A stretch of DNA of 37,702 nt from contig JACOUI010000328.1 in assembly GCA_016177915.1 (NCBI GenBank), positions 1 through 37,702 of the forward strand. Reading direction: 5' to 3'. Of the stretch, positions 15,763-24,190 are shown in pieces (within the stretch, counting starts at the first letter, position 1; each line of letters opens with the position of its first letter). The translations under genes were made by a program, and so were the position numbers. The DNA comes from Planctomycetia bacterium. GTDB lineage: Bacteria; Planctomycetota; Planctomycetia; Pirellulales; S012-138. Below the pieces are notes generated by a model. It did not search any database and was not told where the DNA came from. It was given only the letters and a program-made list of their open reading frames with translations.

Positions 15763-16266
15763 CTACTTGAGGACCGTAATCCCGGCCGCAGAGTTCTTCA
15801 GATTGTCAAGTGGAATCCACTCGTACTGGCCCCAGGGGTTGTAGACGCGGATGCGTTTGCCTGCGACGTCGACGCTATCGACGACGTAGCCGTGGTCACT
15901 CGCCGCATTCCCCGCCTTCGTTTCGTCCCAAGTCGAAATGACGACCTGGTCCCCATTGTCCAGTGCAGCCTTGATCGCGTCGAAGAGCGCCTGGTCGGTC
16001 GCGTAGTCGCTCGAGTCGTGCCACTCCCAGTCGTTCCCGGTCAGGACGCTCCAGGCGTAAGCCACCGAGTCTCCAGTACCAATGCGGTGATAGCCGCTTG
16101 GCCTTCGTGCAACTTGGCAAACGCCTGCTCCAACACGACGTTCCACACCTCCCATTTGCCGGTAGACGTGTCCCAATCGAACGAAAGGTTGGCCATGTCC
16201 GGACCGCGGTTCAGCAGATCTTCCTTGTCGATGCGGATTTCCTCGAGGTCGCTGAAAGGCTGCCAC
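15763..16266 (-). CDS. Calpain-like protease, C-terminal part after a frame break
   Basis: The part from about 16098 downward (GYHRIGTGDSVAYAWSVLTG, then DHGYVVDSVDVAGKRIRVYNPWGQYEW) is the second half of a C2-family (calpain-type) catalytic domain and supplies its His (DHGY) and Asn (YNPWG). The upstream 55 or so residues of this open frame are shadow sequence; the real N-terminal half is in the other frame (16041-18284). Inserting one base near 16098 joins EQAFAKLHEGQ to SGYHRIGTG and gives a continuous domain. No start codon with a ribosome site was found for independent expression. It is a sequence error or a broken gene. The gene ends with TAG at 15763 and the next gene starts 14 bases later. 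Confidence 0.8.
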   Translation of the reverse strand: MAAFQRPRGNPHRQGRSAEPRSGHGQPFVRLGHVYRQMGGVERRVGAGVCQVARRPSGYHRIGTGDSVAYAWSVLTGNDWEWHDSSDYATDQALFDAIKAALDNGDQVVISTWDETKAGNAASDHGYVVDSVDVAGKRIRVYNPWGQYEWIPLDNLKNSAAGITVLK

Positions 16267-18284
16267 CCAGTGCCGTAGACGTTCCTGGTGTCGTGCAGCT
16301 TGACGATGTAGTGGTCGCCGTGGTCCTCAATCATGTCGTAGATCGCCTGCCAATTCTCCCTCGCGAGGGCGGCCACGGCGGCCAGGAAGTAACAGTCGCC
16401 CACCTGGCCCTGTCGGACGTCGTTCTCGTGAATGCCGGGGTTGGGCGACTGAACTGGATCAACCAGCGTTGCTTCGTCGTTGTAGGCGGCGAAAAGCGTG
16501 ATGTCCTCAACGATTGTACACGTGGCCGAGTCCGTGCCGTTGAACGTCGGCTTGGTGCCCTTCAGGTCGGTCGGCGTAGGAATGACGTCGTACCCCGCCG
16601 GCGTGCTTGTTCCCGGGATCGTCGTTTCGAGAGTCACCACAAATGTCTCCAAATCGCCTTCGGGCGTGTCAGCCGCCGCGTGGAGTGTGATTGTGGCGGA
16701 GTTCTGTCCGGCGGGGATCTGGACCGTGCCGTAGTCTTGTTGAGGCAGATTCAACAGCACTGCGCGATCGCCCGCGACAATGTCGTTGGGAGAGGCGGCC
16801 GCCGTTACCGGCTTGGGCGCCGGCCCACCTGTGCTGGTCCAATCCACCTGGTAATACACGTTCAGCGGCGTTGCCAGCGTCTGGTCGCCCAAATACACAA
16901 ACGTCAGCGCGACCGTGTCTTCCGTCCCTTCGACGGCAAAGAAGTCGCCGGTGATCACGACGACGGTGTCGTAAATGTTGCCTGCGTCCACCGCGGTGCC
17001 CAGCGTGGCGTTCACAGGATTGGACAGCGTGACAGTGAATGATTCCGTCAGCTCCGGCCCCTGGTCGTCAACCGTCTTGACTTTGACTTCCTTGGTAGTC
17101 TGCCCTGGGTTGAATCGCAAGATCTCGTCGTGCGCTTCGTAATCGAGGCCGGTAGCCGCTGAGCCAGGCACCGTCTTGAACTTGACCAGGACGGGCTTCT
17201 CGCTCGCGGTGGACAAGTGAACGTAGTATTTCGCCACGCGCCCCTCGGCGACGTCCCGTTGGTTAGCCCCGACGTTAAGGGACACCGTCGGCGGCGAATC
17301 GTTGTCGTAAATCGTGCCCAGCCCGCTGCCATCGGCAATTCCGGCGCCAGTGACGCCTGCGATCTCCACGAAATAGACTTCCGTCGGCTCAAACGTGAGG
17401 TCGTCGATGATGGTCACGGGAATCTGAACCGAGTTCTGACCGGCGGGAATGACTGCTTGTCCCGCGGCTGACTGAAAGTCCTTGTTGGAACGGGCAGTTC
17501 CTGAGAACCGTTGGCCAGTGGCAGGATCGGCGTCGCGTTCCTTCGTCGTGTAGTTGACGGTCACGTCCTGCTGAAGTGGTCCGCCCTCGAGCGTGATTGT
17601 GAACGTCGCCGCGCCGGCAGATTCGTCTACGGTGACGTCGTCGATCGACACACGAGGTCCCGTTGCCGTCCCATCGTTGACCACGATCTGGCAAAAGGCG
17701 ACTCCGCGCCCGATCAGCGCGCCGGCAACGTCGATCACTTCCAGCCTGAACCATTCGTCTGGTTCCGCGTCACCGTCGTCAACGATCGGCACCTGAATCG
17801 GCACCGAAGAAGCACCGGCGGGCAAGACGACTTGCGCGAAGCTTGTCCCTCCGTAGTCCGACGGCGCAACCGCCGAATCGTCGCGGGTCGCGTACGTGAT
17901 GAGAATGTCTTGTTCGGAAACTCCGCCTTCCAGCGTCGCGTAAAAAACCGCCGTACCGCCATCTTCAAACACCGTCGTGTCGAGGACGTCGACGAGCAAC
18001 ATGGGCGCGTCGGGATCGTCGTTGTCCATGATGTCCGCAATCGCCGTCCCGTCGTCGACCAGCGCTCCTTGCGCGCTGACCAAGTGGACGCGAAACGACT
18101 CGACGCCTTCGACGGATAGGTCATTCACGATGGAGATGTTGATCGTCGCGGAAGTACTGCCCGCGGGGATGATGACCTGCTCAATGCCAGACGCGTCGTA
18201 GTCATCAGGGGCGACCGCCGAGTCGTCTGCGGTGTAATACGTTACGGCAACGTCCTGGCTCGTAACGCCGGAGAGGCTCACCAA
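16041..18284 (-). CDS. Calx-beta repeats plus N-terminal half of a calpain-like protease
   Basis: From TTG at 18284 the frame gives 747 residues: about four Calx-beta domains (about 1-90, 93-205, 210-330, 334-440), each closing with a (N/D)DD motif such as DIMDNDD or GTIYDNDS, then a more diverged beta region (about 445-600), and a calpain-type domain start with QGQVGDCYFLAAVAALA, Cys631 being the nucleophile. The His and Asn are in another frame downstream (see 15763-16266). Papain-fold C2 enzymes in bacteria are rare and often secreted; Calx-beta and calpain activity are both Ca2+ linked. The true 5' end is probably ATG 18358: it has GGAGAAG five bases upstream and a promoter above it, but one base must be added in a C run at about 18340 to keep frame; otherwise a TAG at 18351-18353 closes the frame. 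Confidence 0.82.
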   Translation of the reverse strand: MVSLSGVTSQDVAVTYYTADDSAVAPDDYDASGIEQVIIPAGSTSATINISIVNDLSVEGVESFRVHLVSAQGALVDDGTAIADIMDNDDPDAPMLLVDVLDTTVFEDGGTAVFYATLEGGVSEQDILITYATRDDSAVAPSDYGGTSFAQVVLPAGASSVPIQVPIVDDGDAEPDEWFRLEVIDVAGALIGRGVAFCQIVVNDGTATGPRVSIDDVTVDESAGAATFTITLEGGPLQQDVTVNYTTKERDADPATGQRFSGTARSNKDFQSAAGQAVIPAGQNSVQIPVTIIDDLTFEPTEVYFVEIAGVTGAGIADGSGLGTIYDNDSPPTVSLNVGANQRDVAEGRVAKYYVHLSTASEKPVLVKFKTVPGSAATGLDYEAHDEILRFNPGQTTKEVKVKTVDDQGPELTESFTVTLSNPVNATLGTAVDAGNIYDTVVVITGDFFAVEGTEDTVALTFVYLGDQTLATPLNVYYQVDWTSTGGPAPKPVTAAASPNDIVAGDRAVLLNLPQQDYGTVQIPAGQNSATITLHAAADTPEGDLETFVVTLETTIPGTSTPAGYDVIPTPTDLKGTKPTFNGTDSATCTIVEDITLFAAYNDEATLVDPVQSPNPGIHENDVRQGQVGDCYFLAAVAALARENWQAIYDMIEDHGDHYIVKLHDTRNVYGTGWQPFSDLEEIRIDKEDLLNRGPDMANLSFDWDTSTGKWEVWNVVLEQAFAKLHEGQAAITALVLETRWLTPGAS

Positions 18285-19991: not shown

Positions 19992-20141
19992 ATGGACTGG
20001 TGGAAAATCGCGATCGGAATCGCGTTGATTCTGCTCCCCTTCGTGCTCCTGTTCTGGTTCTGGCCCCATGACCGCAACCAGGGCCGGCAACACGGCGGCG
20101 GGTTTCGGGGCTATATGCGAATCAAGGGCGGCGGCCGCTAA
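19992..20141 (+). CDS. 49-residue single-pass membrane peptide
   Basis: A short gene from ATG 19992, 23 bases after cobL. The peptide starts MDWWKIAIGIALILLPFVLL, a strong transmembrane helix at about 5-24, followed by FWFWPHDRN and a Gly/Arg/Lys-rich tail (HGGGFRGYMRIKGGGR). The hydrophobic-then-basic layout and end at a clean TAA argue for a real small membrane protein, although no Shine-Dalgarno is obvious. Family not recognised. Confidence 0.5.
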   Translation: MDWWKIAIGIALILLPFVLLFWFWPHDRNQGRQHGGGFRGYMRIKGGGR

Positions 20142-20220
20142 ACGCACGCGCGAGTCTGCGACCCCTGTGAATGCGAGTCACCGGGGGGCTGACGTTCCCC
20201 GCTCGCCGACGGAGGCAACC

Positions 20221-20910
20221 ATGCCCACCATCCTCGACCGCGACCTGGCCCATCTCATTCACTCGCTGCACAACAAGCAGGCGCAGGCGCAGGCCCACGT
20301 CTGGATGCGCGGCGAAGGCGCGGTCGTCTACGACCAGAACGGCAAGGCGTTCCTCGACGCGCTGGCCGGCCTGTGGAACGTCGTCGTCGGCCACGGCCGC
20401 AAGGAGCTGGCCGACGCCGCCGCCCGCCAGATGTCCACGCTGGCCTACGCCACCTGCTACGCCGGCTCGACCAATCCGCCGGCGATCGAGCTGGCCGAGC
20501 GGCTGTCGGAGATCTGTTATCCGAACATCCGGCGGTTTTACTTCACCTGCGGCGGGTCGGAATCGAACGAGGCCGCCTTCAAGACCGCGCGATTCTTTTG
20601 GAAGACGGCCGGGCGGCCTGAGAAGGTCAAATTCATCAGCCGCCGCTTCGCCTACCACGGTACGACGCTGGCCGCGATGACCGCCACGGGCCTGGAGTCG
20701 TACTGGCCGATGTTCGAGCCGCGCGTGCCGGGCTTCTCGCACATCGAAAGCCCGTACCCCTACGTTTCACGTTCACCCCGCGCGACACGAGCGACCGTCG
20801 CACGCCCAGCCAGGCTGCGGCCGACCTGTTGGAAGAAGAAATCCTCCGCCAGGGTCCGGAGACCGTGGCGGCGTTCATCGGCGAGCCGGTGCAAGGGGCC
20901 GGCGGCGTGA
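20221..20910 (+). CDS. Class III aminotransferase, N-terminal part before a frame break
   Basis: Starts at ATG 20221 with GGAGG five bases upstream. Residues 1-180 are the N-terminal half of a PLP-dependent class III (omega-amino acid/pyruvate type) aminotransferase: WMRGEGAVVYDQNGKAFLDALAGLWNVVVGHG, ATCYAGSTNPPAIELAERL, FYFTCGGSESNEAAFKTARFF (phosphate-binding GSE), and RRFAYHGTTLAAMTATG. After SPYPY, near 20763, the frame turns into basic low-quality sequence; the true continuation (RFTFTPRDTSDRRTPSQAAADLLEEEI) lies one frame over and continues in 20829-21584. Adding one base near 20763 restores a protein of 454 residues, the normal family length. Either a sequence error or a recently inactivated gene. 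Confidence 0.9.
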   Translation: MPTILDRDLAHLIHSLHNKQAQAQAHVWMRGEGAVVYDQNGKAFLDALAGLWNVVVGHGRKELADAAARQMSTLAYATCYAGSTNPPAIELAERLSEICYPNIRRFYFTCGGSESNEAAFKTARFFWKTAGRPEKVKFISRRFAYHGTTLAAMTATGLESYWPMFEPRVPGFSHIESPYPYVSRSPRATRATVARPARLRPTCWKKKSSARVRRPWRRSSASRCKGPAA

Positions 20911-21584
20911 TCGTTCCGCAAGACGACTACTGGCCGCGCATCCGCCAGATTTGCGACCGACACAACGTCCTTCTGATCGCCGACGAAGTGATCACGGGCT
21001 TCGGCCGGACGGGAGACTGGTTTGCCCTCTCGCGGTACGGCATCAAGCCGGACATCGTCAGCTTCGCCAAGGCGATCACGAGCGGCTACTTTCCGCTGGG
21101 CGGGATCGGCGTGAGCGACCAGATTGCAGAGGCCATCGACGCCGCAACGGACCAGCGGACGTGGATGCACGCCTACACCTACTCTGCGCATCCCACGGGT
21201 TGCGCCGTCGCGCTGGCCAACCTCGACATCATCAAGCGCGAAGGGCTGGTGCAGCGGGCTGCGGAATTGGGGCAACTGCTCCTTTCGCGCCTGAAGACGC
21301 TCGCGGCGCATCCCAACGTGGGCGACGTCCGCGGGCTGGGCCTGATGGCCGCCGTCGAGTTGGTCGCCGACCAGAAGACCAAGGCCGAGTTTCCGCCGGA
21401 GTCCAAAATCGGCCCCAGGATCCACGCAGCCACGCAGGAGCGGGGGATGTTCACGCGGTTGCGAGGTGACGTGTACAACCTGGCGCCTCCTTTTATTACG
21501 ACACCTGCACAGATTGAACGGATGGTGCAGATTCTGGGGGATTCGACGGATGCGGTGCTGCCAGCCATGCGCGGCGCACCTTGA
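20829..21584 (+). CDS. Class III aminotransferase, C-terminal part after a frame break
   Basis: The homologous sequence in this frame begins at about 20764. It holds the core of the enzyme: FIGEPVQGAGGVIVPQDDYW, LLIADEVITGFGRTGDWF with the PLP-ring aspartate, VSFAKAITSGYFPLGG with the PLP lysine (Lys284 in the joined protein), WMHAYTYSAHPTGCAVALAN, and a C-terminal small domain ending in ITTPAQIERMVQILGDSTD. Substrates of this group are typically beta-alanine, GABA, putrescine or similar amines with pyruvate as acceptor; the specific one cannot be read. The stop at 21584 converges with the minus-strand unit, 11 bases away. See 20221-20910 for the start and the break. Confidence 0.9.
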   Translation: MEEEILRQGPETVAAFIGEPVQGAGGVIVPQDDYWPRIRQICDRHNVLLIADEVITGFGRTGDWFALSRYGIKPDIVSFAKAITSGYFPLGGIGVSDQIAEAIDAATDQRTWMHAYTYSAHPTGCAVALANLDIIKREGLVQRAAELGQLLLSRLKTLAAHPNVGDVRGLGLMAAVELVADQKTKAEFPPESKIGPRIHAATQERGMFTRLRGDVYNLAPPFITTPAQIERMVQILGDSTDAVLPAMRGAP

Positions 21585-21595
21585 GGATTGCAGCT

Positions 21596-21946
21596 CTAAG
21601 CGTCTTTCAAAAAATCCTCAACGTCGTCCCAGTCGATCGGGTAGCCCTTGCGCCGCGGGAACGCGTAAACAATGTCAACGTGGTCCTCGCGGTCGCTGTC
21701 GGGGAACGTCCAATGAATGAAAATCAGCCTGAAGCTGTGCTTGCCCGATTCCAGGTAGGCCTTGCGAAGCTGTGCGGTCGGATACCCCTGGCGGACGTGC
21801 TCTGGAACGACATCCAGCAAAGGGAACGACGACGGGTCGCGTTCCAGGGCCTCAAACGTCTCTTGCAGGAGCTTCTTGACGAGCTGGCTCGTCGCGGCGA
21901 TGGCCTTGAGTTCGCGCTTCACGTACGAAGAGTCGATCGATGCCAT
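21596..21946 (-). CDS. Small RelE/HigB-like protein, candidate toxin
   Basis: A 116-residue protein. N-terminal helices (MASIDSSYVKRELKAIAATSQLVKKLLQ is too helical for a RelE start alone) lead to FEALERDPSSFPLLDVVPE, then basic strands YPTAQLRKAYLESGKHSFRLIFIHW, and HVDIVYAFPRRKGYPIDWDDVEDFLK. The pattern of a short helix pair followed by strands with Arg/Lys and a closing hydrophobic strand resembles RelE/ParE-type ribonuclease or gyrase toxins, but no catalytic set was recognised. The ATG at 21946 lies two bases after the stop of the gene at 21949-22593, so the pair is translated together. Most likely the toxin half of a two-gene module; confidence in that role is limited. Confidence 0.65.
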   Translation of the reverse strand: MASIDSSYVKRELKAIAATSQLVKKLLQETFEALERDPSSFPLLDVVPEHVRQGYPTAQLRKAYLESGKHSFRLIFIHWTFPDSDREDHVDIVYAFPRRKGYPIDWDDVEDFLKDA

Positions 21947-21948
21947 GA

Positions 21949-22593
21949 TCAGGCACCGGCCTCTTTTTTCTGGCCACGACCGAAGTAGATGCTGCGCCAA
22001 TCCTCGCCGTGCGCTGGGCGTTTGGCCGCGCGTTCGATGCGCTTCGACAGTTCGCGATGCAGGCGTTCGTCGACCAGGTCGGACAGCCATTCCGCCTCGT
22101 CGTCGTCCAGCCCATCAAGTTCGATGCGATCCGGAGCCAGGGAAGCGAAAACAACGTCACCGCGGCGGCTGGAATTGTGAGTCGCGTTGCTGGCGGCCAT
22201 TTCAAGAATATCGTCGCTCGTCAGGTTGGCCCATCGGCGGAATGCGCGACGCAGTTCACGGTTCCAATTGGGAAAGAAGCGCCCAAAGAACCGCCGCAGC
22301 GCGGCGGCTTCCCGCCTGGATAATTCGGCCCTGATTCGTTCCGAGGGGCCGTCAAAGCAGGTCGAAATCCTGCCGGCGCTTCTGAGCTTGTTCAGCGCCT
22401 CCGAGATTTCATCGCTGAACTCCCCCAGCCGCCACTTCTTAAAGGTGAAAAGACGCCATTTTGGCTTGGCGCTCTCGTCGGCAAGAAAAAGTGTCTTGTG
22501 AAGACTGAGCGGACCGACAGCGCCGCGCCGCCACAGGCTTAACGCCCAGAGCACCGCCAGCTTCTGAATCACTGGTTTGTGCAACGCAGCCAC
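21949..22593 (-). CDS. Panacea (DUF4065)-like protein, candidate antitoxin
   Basis: A 214-residue protein with GTG start at 22593. Residues about 8-70 (KLAVLWALSLWRRG, LHKTLFLADESA, WRLGEFSDEISEALNKLRSAGRI) resemble the Panacea domain, whose known hallmarks are KLLYLAD-like and GP(F/Y)SPE-like segments in phage GepA-type and antitoxin proteins. The C-terminal 140 residues are helical and rich in Arg, Glu and Asp. Panacea proteins act as antitoxins against many unrelated toxins, and the gene order here (Panacea-like first, small protein next with a two-base gap) is as expected for such a pair. A TAGAAT box at 22627-22622 may be the -10, without a good -35. The Panacea assignment is by eye and needs a profile search. 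Confidence 0.55.
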   Translation of the reverse strand: MAALHKPVIQKLAVLWALSLWRRGAVGPLSLHKTLFLADESAKPKWRLFTFKKWRLGEFSDEISEALNKLRSAGRISTCFDGPSERIRAELSRREAAALRRFFGRFFPNWNRELRRAFRRWANLTSDDILEMAASNATHNSSRRGDVVFASLAPDRIELDGLDDDEAEWLSDLVDERLHRELSKRIERAAKRPAHGEDWRSIYFGRGQKKEAGA

Positions 22594-22707
22594 GTATCAC
22601 CCCGCGGCAATGGACAACAAGATTCTAGCATCGGCCGACATTCGCGACATCCGATCCAATCGGACCGACCCGCATGACTCGCAACCCTGCTGCCGCCGCT
22701 CGTCCGC

Positions 22708-22736
22708 TTGACACCCCCGGTGTCCACCGATACATT
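22708..22736 (+). promoter_or_regulatory. Sigma70-type promoter of the ABC ATPase gene
   Basis: A perfect TTGACA at 22708-22713, a spacer of exactly 17 bases and TACATT at 22731-22736. Transcription would start near 22743, leaving a leader of about 185 bases before ATG 22928. Confidence 0.6.
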
Positions 22737-22927
22737 TACTTGGCTGTAGCAGCAGTAAGTTTCGTCAGATTGAGGACTTGCCGATGGGGAGCGCCCCCTG
22801 GCGGGGCGTCGCCGACAGGACCTTAAGAGTCCGGCGTTCGCGGAACGGCGCTGCGTGGGTCGTGCTTTGCGCGGCCACACAAGGCGCTTTTTCCACTGTA
22901 TAGGCACGCGGTTGTCGTGCATCCGTC
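22737..22927 (+). promoter_or_regulatory. Structured leader of the ABC ATPase gene with attenuator-like hairpin
   Basis: Between the promoter and the start codon lie several stems. CGCCCC near 22791-22796 pairs with GGGGCG near 22802-22807. CGTTC pairs with GAACG at about 22833-22845. A bulged stem at 22869-22887 is followed by five T bases (22888-22892), as in a transcription attenuator. No known riboswitch class was recognised. The rest of the divergent region (22594-22707) holds only the possible -10 of the minus-strand pair. Confidence 0.35.
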
Positions 22928-24190
22928 ATGGCCCGCCTGGAACTTACCGGCTTAACCAAGCGGTTTTCGGGGGACGTGACGGCCATTCGTGATTTGAGCT
23001 TGACCGTCGACGACGAGTTGCTGGTGCTTTTGGGACCAAGCGGCAGCGGCAAGTCGACGACCCTGCGGCTGATCGCCGGGCTGGAAACGCCCGACGACGG
23101 CCGGGTCTGCATCGACGATCAGGTCGTGAATAACCTTCCGCCGGCGCGGCGCGGCGTCTCCCTGGTCTTCCAGGAACTGGCGCTCTACCCGCACCTGACG
23201 GTGAAGAAAAACTTGTCCTTTGGCTTGGAATTGAAAGGAGGAATGAACGGGCTGTCGCGGCTCGGGCTGACTTGGCTCAAGGCGCGCCTGACGGGGTCGT
23301 CCGCAGCAAAAACGCGGTGGGCCGAGATCGACGACGAGGTGACGAAGGTCGCCCGCATGTTGTCGATCGAGGGCCTGCTCGCGCGTCGTCCCGACGAATT
23401 GTCCGGCGGCGAGCGGCAACGTGTCGCTCTGGGCCGGGCGCTGGTCGGGCGGCCGCGCGTGCTGCTTTTGGACGAGCCCCTCGCGCACCTGGACGTTCGG
23501 CTTCGCGAAACGGCCCGGCGCGAGCTAGTGGACCTTCGCCGGCGACTCGGCGCTTGCATGCTGTACGTCACCCACGACCAGGCGGAAGCTCTGGCCCTGG
23601 GAGACAGGATCGGCGTGCTCGACGCGGGGCGCCTGCGGCAACTGGGAACTCCCCAGGAGGTCTACGACGCTCCCGCCGACCGGTTCGTGGCCGGGTTCCT
23701 CGGCTCGCCGCCGATGAACCTGCTGGACGGAGAACTGTCCGGCGGCGAAGGGACGGCGTTGTGCTTCCGTGGGGCCGGGTTTTGCCTGCCGCTGGCCGGC
23801 GCGCCGGTTCCCGTCGCGAGCCAACGTCGCTTCACGCTGGGCATCCGTCCGGAAGCGATCGAGGTTCGGGGGAGCCAGGTCGGCGAAGGACGGGAACAAC
23901 ACGAACCGCTGGTTGGCGAAGGGTGCAGCACCAGGTGTGCCGCCGCCTTGGACGCCCGCCACTGGCTGGGAGACACGATCGTGGCCTACGTCCTGCTCGG
24001 CGCGGCGCGTCTGGCCGTGAAGTGCGGCACGCGGACGCCGAGCGGAAGATCGATCCAAAACGCAACTGCGCCCGACCCAATCTCATGCAACATTCCCCAT
24101 GACGAAATGCACTGGTTCGACGCCCAGAGCGGCCGACGAGTGACCCGCCTGGAGCGCCTCGAAGGGTGCAACGAAATCGCGACCAACTAG
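22928..24190 (+). CDS. ABC transporter ATP-binding protein, MalK/UgpC type
   Basis: A 420-residue ATPase of the carbohydrate-uptake (CUT1) type. Walker [10 protein letters not shown] (36-44), Q-loop Gln82 in [13 protein letters not shown], signature [15 protein letters not shown] (158-172), Walker B VLLLDEP (178-184), D-loop HLD, switch His216 in VTHDQAEAL. After residue 235 come the regulatory TOBE strands ([40 protein letters not shown]). An insertion of about 32 residues (103-134, rich in Gly, Leu, Lys) lies between Q-loop and signature where MalK has a short link. No permease or binding protein is adjacent, so it may energise several separate importers. ATG 22928 is preceded by a promoter and a long leader. 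nusA begins 55 bases after its stop. Confidence 0.93.

Follow-up and report, generated by a model that had tools for sequence, protein, structure and literature searches.

The window, by which we mean the whole stretch of 37,702 nucleotides analysed here, carries a compact pair of genes, P0001 and P0002, that probably encodes a type II-like toxin-antitoxin (TA) module on a mobile cassette, made of a divergent antitoxin of the Panacea superfamily and a remote toxin of the RelE/ParE superfamily. The locus has the anatomy of a two-gene unit, both of its proteins are under selection, and the genes are strictly paired in two genomes; P0001 is homologous to the Panacea core, as judged from sequence profiles, and P0002 is remotely similar to RelE by sequence. 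Since both proteins are distant relatives of known families, the pair is a rare and divergent addition to a known kind of module and nothing unprecedented. Its interest is twofold: as a Panacea-like module missed by the current family models, it would mean that Panacea-type TA systems are undercounted, and P0001 suggests a connection, open to test, between two antitoxin families that have been studied separately, Panacea and the C-terminal domain of DarG.

The first-pass annotation had read two open reading frames of 214 and 116 residues at 21596-22593, joined by TGA-TC-ATG, and all of this was borne out from the sequence (Table 1). The peptides LHKTLFLADES and LGEFSDEISEALNKLRSAGRI are present as quoted, and the isolated position between unrelated genes is real: a class-III aminotransferase gene converges on the pair, its end at 21584 lying some 11 nt away from that of P0002, and an ABC-transporter ATPase gene diverges from P0001 with its start at 22928. 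The strand of the pair, absent from that annotation, is minus. The junction is consistent with translational coupling of P0001 and P0002. The promoter is expected in the intergenic region upstream of P0001, on the minus strand of which no sigma-70-like site was found.

Table 1. Coordinates of the features of the P0001-P0002 locus in the window.
Feature	Position	Strand	Basis
P0001, first gene, putative antitoxin, 214 aa, GTG start	21949..22593	-	ORF and translation
Panacea-like core of P0001, residues 10-79: helix, LHKTLFLAD helix, RLG(E/P)(F/Y)S region, helix	22357..22566	-	hhalign
P0002, second gene, putative RelE/ParE-superfamily toxin, 116 aa, ATG start	21596..21946	-	ORF and profile comparison
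Junction TGA-TC-ATG, P0001 stop to P0002 start, 2 nt	21944..21951	-	
Shine-Dalgarno-like GGGGTGA upstream of the P0001 GTG	22597..22603	-	Read from sequence
Intergenic region of 334 nt, common to the P0001-P0002 pair and the divergent ABC-transporter gene	22594..22927	.	

Two neighbouring genes deserve a remark of their own. The class-III aminotransferase (20068-21584, plus strand) is broken across two frames, an N-terminal part at 20068-20910 and a C-terminal part at 20829-21584, both matching Aminotran_3, and the split is a frameshift or a sequence error. Further away, at 16041-18284 on the minus strand, a protein has a cysteine protease domain of calpain type (Peptidase_C2) after its Calx-beta repeats; this frame may be a piece of a longer or broken gene.

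The pairing proposed by the first-pass annotation withstood an inspection of co-occurrence: both genomes that contain homologues have the two genes, side by side. Among 58 relatives, P0001 and P0002 each have one homologue (49% and 56% identity, respectively), and both homologues lie in G026:C58 (GenBank contig JAICLL010000086.1), from a Pirellulales MAG of another Pirellulales family, where they adjoin, share a strand and keep the order seen here. The spacing is 2 nt here and about 9 nt in the second genome, and the pair is thus found in two Pirellulales families. Over more than 430 Planctomycetota genomes searched, exactly one other genome has the pair; searching more widely, through 392 Planctomycetota genomes and 202 genomes of the order, gave no further one, and absence is joint, one gene being missing wherever the other is missing in the genomes searched. 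Scanning viral and genome collections by pattern returned just the one other genome, or nothing, and tblastn searches of plasmids and phages were negative or insignificant. Codon-position identities between the two genomes (0.59/0.67/0.41 and 0.61/0.73/0.39 for the two genes) indicate that both reading frames are under purifying selection; dN/dS of P0001 is about 0.2, with dS near saturation. The neighbour genes of the pair differ between the two genomes, GC over the pair is 0.59-0.62 against 0.65-0.70 around it, and GC3 of the two genes is 0.70 and 0.78 against 0.87-0.90 in nusA and a methyltransferase gene nearby. Patchy, foreign-looking, always paired and tightly spaced, the two-gene cassette has, we infer, the look of mobile TA modules.

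The proposal that P0001 is a Panacea protein is upheld by profile-profile comparison and not by family search. No significant match was found in Pfam and NCBIfam; the SocA_Panacea model (PF13274) gave no match even at E<=10, let alone at its curated cut-off, and a PF13274 search of the genome to which the window belongs found three other Panacea genes and left the contig of the window (C292) unflagged. Against a profile of 32 PF13274 proteins from Planctomycetota, P0001 scored 40.5 in hhalign (probability 85%, E 6e-6), with a best score of 21.1 among 399 column shuffles and of 12.3 for the reversed profile. The match spans residues 10-79 of 214 and nothing beyond. In this alignment, the conserved KLlKLLYxAD helix is paired with LHKTLFLAD and the GPV stretch with RLGEFSDEI, which the homologue has as RLGPYSNEV; the motif itself reads GEF in P0001 and GPY in the homologue. 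Residues 10-79 are, on these profile scores, homologous to the Panacea core. P0001 is basic overall (pI 10.0), its tail (residues 146-214) is acidic and ends in a conserved EDWRxIYF, and its structure model is unusable (pLDDT 37).

The second protein had been described as basic and as resembling RelE/HigB toxins. It is in fact acidic (pI 5.5, 16 K+R against 20 D+E; pI 5.1 in the homologue), and the resemblance is found in profile comparison and lost in the fold search of PDB and BFVD. Searches with Pfam, NCBIfam and PADLOC toxin models gave no match for P0002, the sole Pfam hint being a match of its homologue to ParE_toxin (E 0.027), below the cut-off. A profile made of the two sequences picks up P0003 (in G108; 29% identity over 113 aa), a protein that has weak sub-threshold matches to the ParE_toxin and RelE models, plasmid relatives annotated as RelE/ParE toxins and a small partner gene downstream. 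Because P0003 had been selected out of hundreds of genomes, with a chance open reading frame (L007) scoring slightly lower, further RelE tests were run; L007 itself was rejected as a relative, since it lies opposite a succinate dehydrogenase-like gene and is a frame open by chance. Compared by hhalign with a RelE set devoid of P0003, P0002 scored 34.7 (shuffle maximum 22.7). A second set of HigB-like Panacea partners, chosen solely for following Panacea genes and without using P0002, gave 23.7 (shuffle maximum 20.5, 0/200 above) over residues 52-97, the core strands. Cross-controls (P0002 against Panacea and P0001 against RelE) stayed at noise level, and P0002 had no similarity to two short Panacea partners (L017 and L041).

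The structural evidence is less favourable to this assignment. The AlphaFold model of P0002, of medium confidence (pLDDT 71, pTM 0.65, from a 4-sequence alignment), runs helix-helix-(helix)-strand-strand-strand-helix, an arrangement that fits RelE minus its first strand, and Foldseek of this model against PDB and BFVD returned no significant or RelE-like match (best TM about 0.36). HigB-2 PDB matches of one alignment profile (A8) were discounted, since that alignment includes two RelE-type viral proteins that drive them; two other alignments (A6 and A7) were rejected for misaligned C-terminal strands, and PDB matches of the A3 and A2 profiles were insignificant. Given these profile scores and the negative Foldseek search, RelE membership is backed by sequence and unproven by structure, and we regard P0002 as a remote RelE/ParE-superfamily protein by sequence.

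What P0002 would attack is a separate question. In the alignment with its relatives, K62 and R73 are kept, and F96 and R98 stand where the relatives have Tyr and Lys. An acidic charge is unusual in a ribosome-dependent RNase, and together with the missing tyrosine it makes a classical enzyme of that type less certain than the first-pass annotation implied. It is a serious possibility, falling a little short of an even chance, that the same module carries a ParE-type gyrase inhibitor, or a toxin with another target, and not a RelE/HigB mRNA interferase: the charge, the Phe that takes the place of the RelE-type C-terminal tyrosine in the alignment and the ParE_toxin hint of the homologue all lean that way, but the better-scoring relatives match RelE (PF06296) more strongly than ParE.

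The ancestry of P0001 invites a second alternative. Its sole named-family match is to the C-terminal part of PADLOC DarG (E 0.002; 0.0036 for the homologue). Against the C-terminal domains taken from 11 planctomycete DarG proteins, P0001 scored 39.8 in hhalign over residues 19-75 (shuffles <=19.8), on a par with its Panacea score of 40.5. The Panacea profile compared directly with the DarG C-terminal domain (loci L008-L041 and L046-L057, respectively) scored 48.8 over 112 columns (E 5e-7; shuffles <=21.1). From these mutual profile matches, Panacea, the DarG C-terminal domain and P0001 are best seen as one superfamily, and the first two probably form a single antitoxin superfamily by sequence. 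We put at about an even chance the fuller proposal that all three are one superfamily in which P0001 is intermediate, its acidic partner possibly being a new branch of the RelE superfamily; DarG would then be a Panacea-type antitoxin fused to a macrodomain. This kinship of Panacea and DarG is unstated in the consulted literature naming both families and may be known elsewhere; the Panacea paper names DarG just as a dual-mechanism antitoxin (PMC8832971).

P0001 may then be a stand-alone antitoxin like the DarG C-terminal domain, the pair having come from the DarTG side with a RelE-like toxin replacing DarT, but we hold this origin to be doubtful. DarG is the one named family that P0001 and its homologue both match, and the ordinary Panacea proteins of the same genome, unlike P0001, do not match it; moreover, GPYSNEV of the homologue resembles GPYAENL of DarG, and stand-alone proteins of this kind occur in the same genome and in others. 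However, the Panacea score is as high as the DarG score, the partner resembles RelE, like those of many Panacea proteins, and is not an ADP-ribosyltransferase; as Panacea and the DarG domain align with each other, choosing between them may lack content.

That the pair is no TA module at all, and instead an accessory two-gene unit in which the RelE similarity is spurious or a toxin-like partner was detoxified and serves regulation or binding, would suit the negative fold search, the acidic P0002 and the lack of curated-model matches, but is unlikely in view of the anatomy, the spacing, the sporadic distribution, the joint absence, the Panacea-superfamily P0001 and the shuffle-controlled RelE similarity of P0002.

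Returning to the TA module that we favour, we infer a toxic P0002 that is bound by P0001 until a trigger releases it. The two proteins would be made from one message by coupled translation across TGA-TC-ATG, which would keep the antitoxin in step with the toxin. The N-terminal helical core of P0001, with or without the acidic C-terminal tail, would bind and mask P0002. Should the supply of P0001 fail, following cassette loss, stress or phage shut-off, P0002 would be released, and the free protein would stop growth by acting on mRNA, gyrase or another target.

Several related loci were seen along the way. Stand-alone proteins of 167-252 aa that are like the DarG C-terminal domain and Panacea are encoded at L076 230-2070 (C320 of the same genome), L077 1551-2057 and L078 1491-3361 (PADLOC DarG, E 5e-10 to 2e-8); in L076 and L078 a gene for an HD-domain hydrolase, dGTPase-like by PADLOC, directly precedes them, which makes these two loci candidate hydrolase/antitoxin pairs. 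The same genome also encodes (L085 1368-2537, C131) a 389-aa protein in which a DarT ADP-ribosyltransferase (Pfam DarT, E 9e-47) is joined to a macrodomain (Pfam Macro, E 6e-6) and the DarG C-terminal domain is lacking; the macrodomain is placed as in the solved 406-aa macrodomain protein 7omu.

By inspection, a small RelE-type gene often comes after the Panacea gene in this phylum (L012, L013, L015, L031, L032 and L039), with RelE Pfam matches for the partners in L015 and L039. Of the three PF13274 matches in the genome of the window, one is followed by a 97-aa gene: at this locus (L083 1838-2717, C83), the canonical Panacea gene overlaps the small gene, which has no family match, and L041 has a 98-aa gene of similar appearance after Panacea. 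These 97- and 98-aa genes possibly represent a second small-toxin type. At several planctomycete loci (L010, L011, L022, L026, L028, L036 and L037), the Panacea gene is followed by a gene for a protein of 118-190 aa; these partners share a stretch like W.V.SDP....V.V..TT.R..KD..C....GDHP and look like a recurrent family of Panacea partners.

How, then, does the pair compare with systems already described? The C83 pair likewise consists of two genes, Panacea first and a small gene second; unlike P0001, its first protein is a canonical PF13274 match (E 2e-14), and its small partner has no detectable similarity to P0002. With RelE/ParE toxins (HigB-2 type, PF06296/PF05016), P0002 shares a length of about 115 aa and, by alignment and predicted secondary structure, the helical pair, the core strands with K62 and R73 and the C-terminal helix. 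It differs from them by its acidic charge, the lack of a curated match, the negative fold search, some 10 residues inserted ahead of the core strands and the Phe at the aligned C-terminal Tyr position. P0001 shares a helix and a GP(Y/F)-like stretch with the C-terminal domain of DarG, the toxin-binding part of DarTG (solved chain 7yk3_B); the similarity is to this domain alone, P0001 being without a macrodomain and its partner not being DarT. Last, like PanAT systems (PF13274; PMC8832971), the pair has the antitoxin gene first, the toxin gene within 100 nt, conservation of the two-gene locus in two species and a patchy distribution, and P0001 has in common with them a homologous helical core, as far as profiles tell, including the GP(V)-like position. 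P0001 departs from PanAT antitoxins in escaping PF13274 detection, in a similarity confined to residues 10-79, in GEF (GPY in the homologue) for the GPV motif and in an acidic C-terminal tail unlike the aligned Panacea proteins. Direct toxin binding is established for other Panacea antitoxins. The published list of PanAT toxins, with 88 toxin clusters, names ParE and also holds dozens of clusters without a name, and antitoxin-first two-gene loci pairing Panacea with a ParE-type toxin are already on it (PMC8832971).
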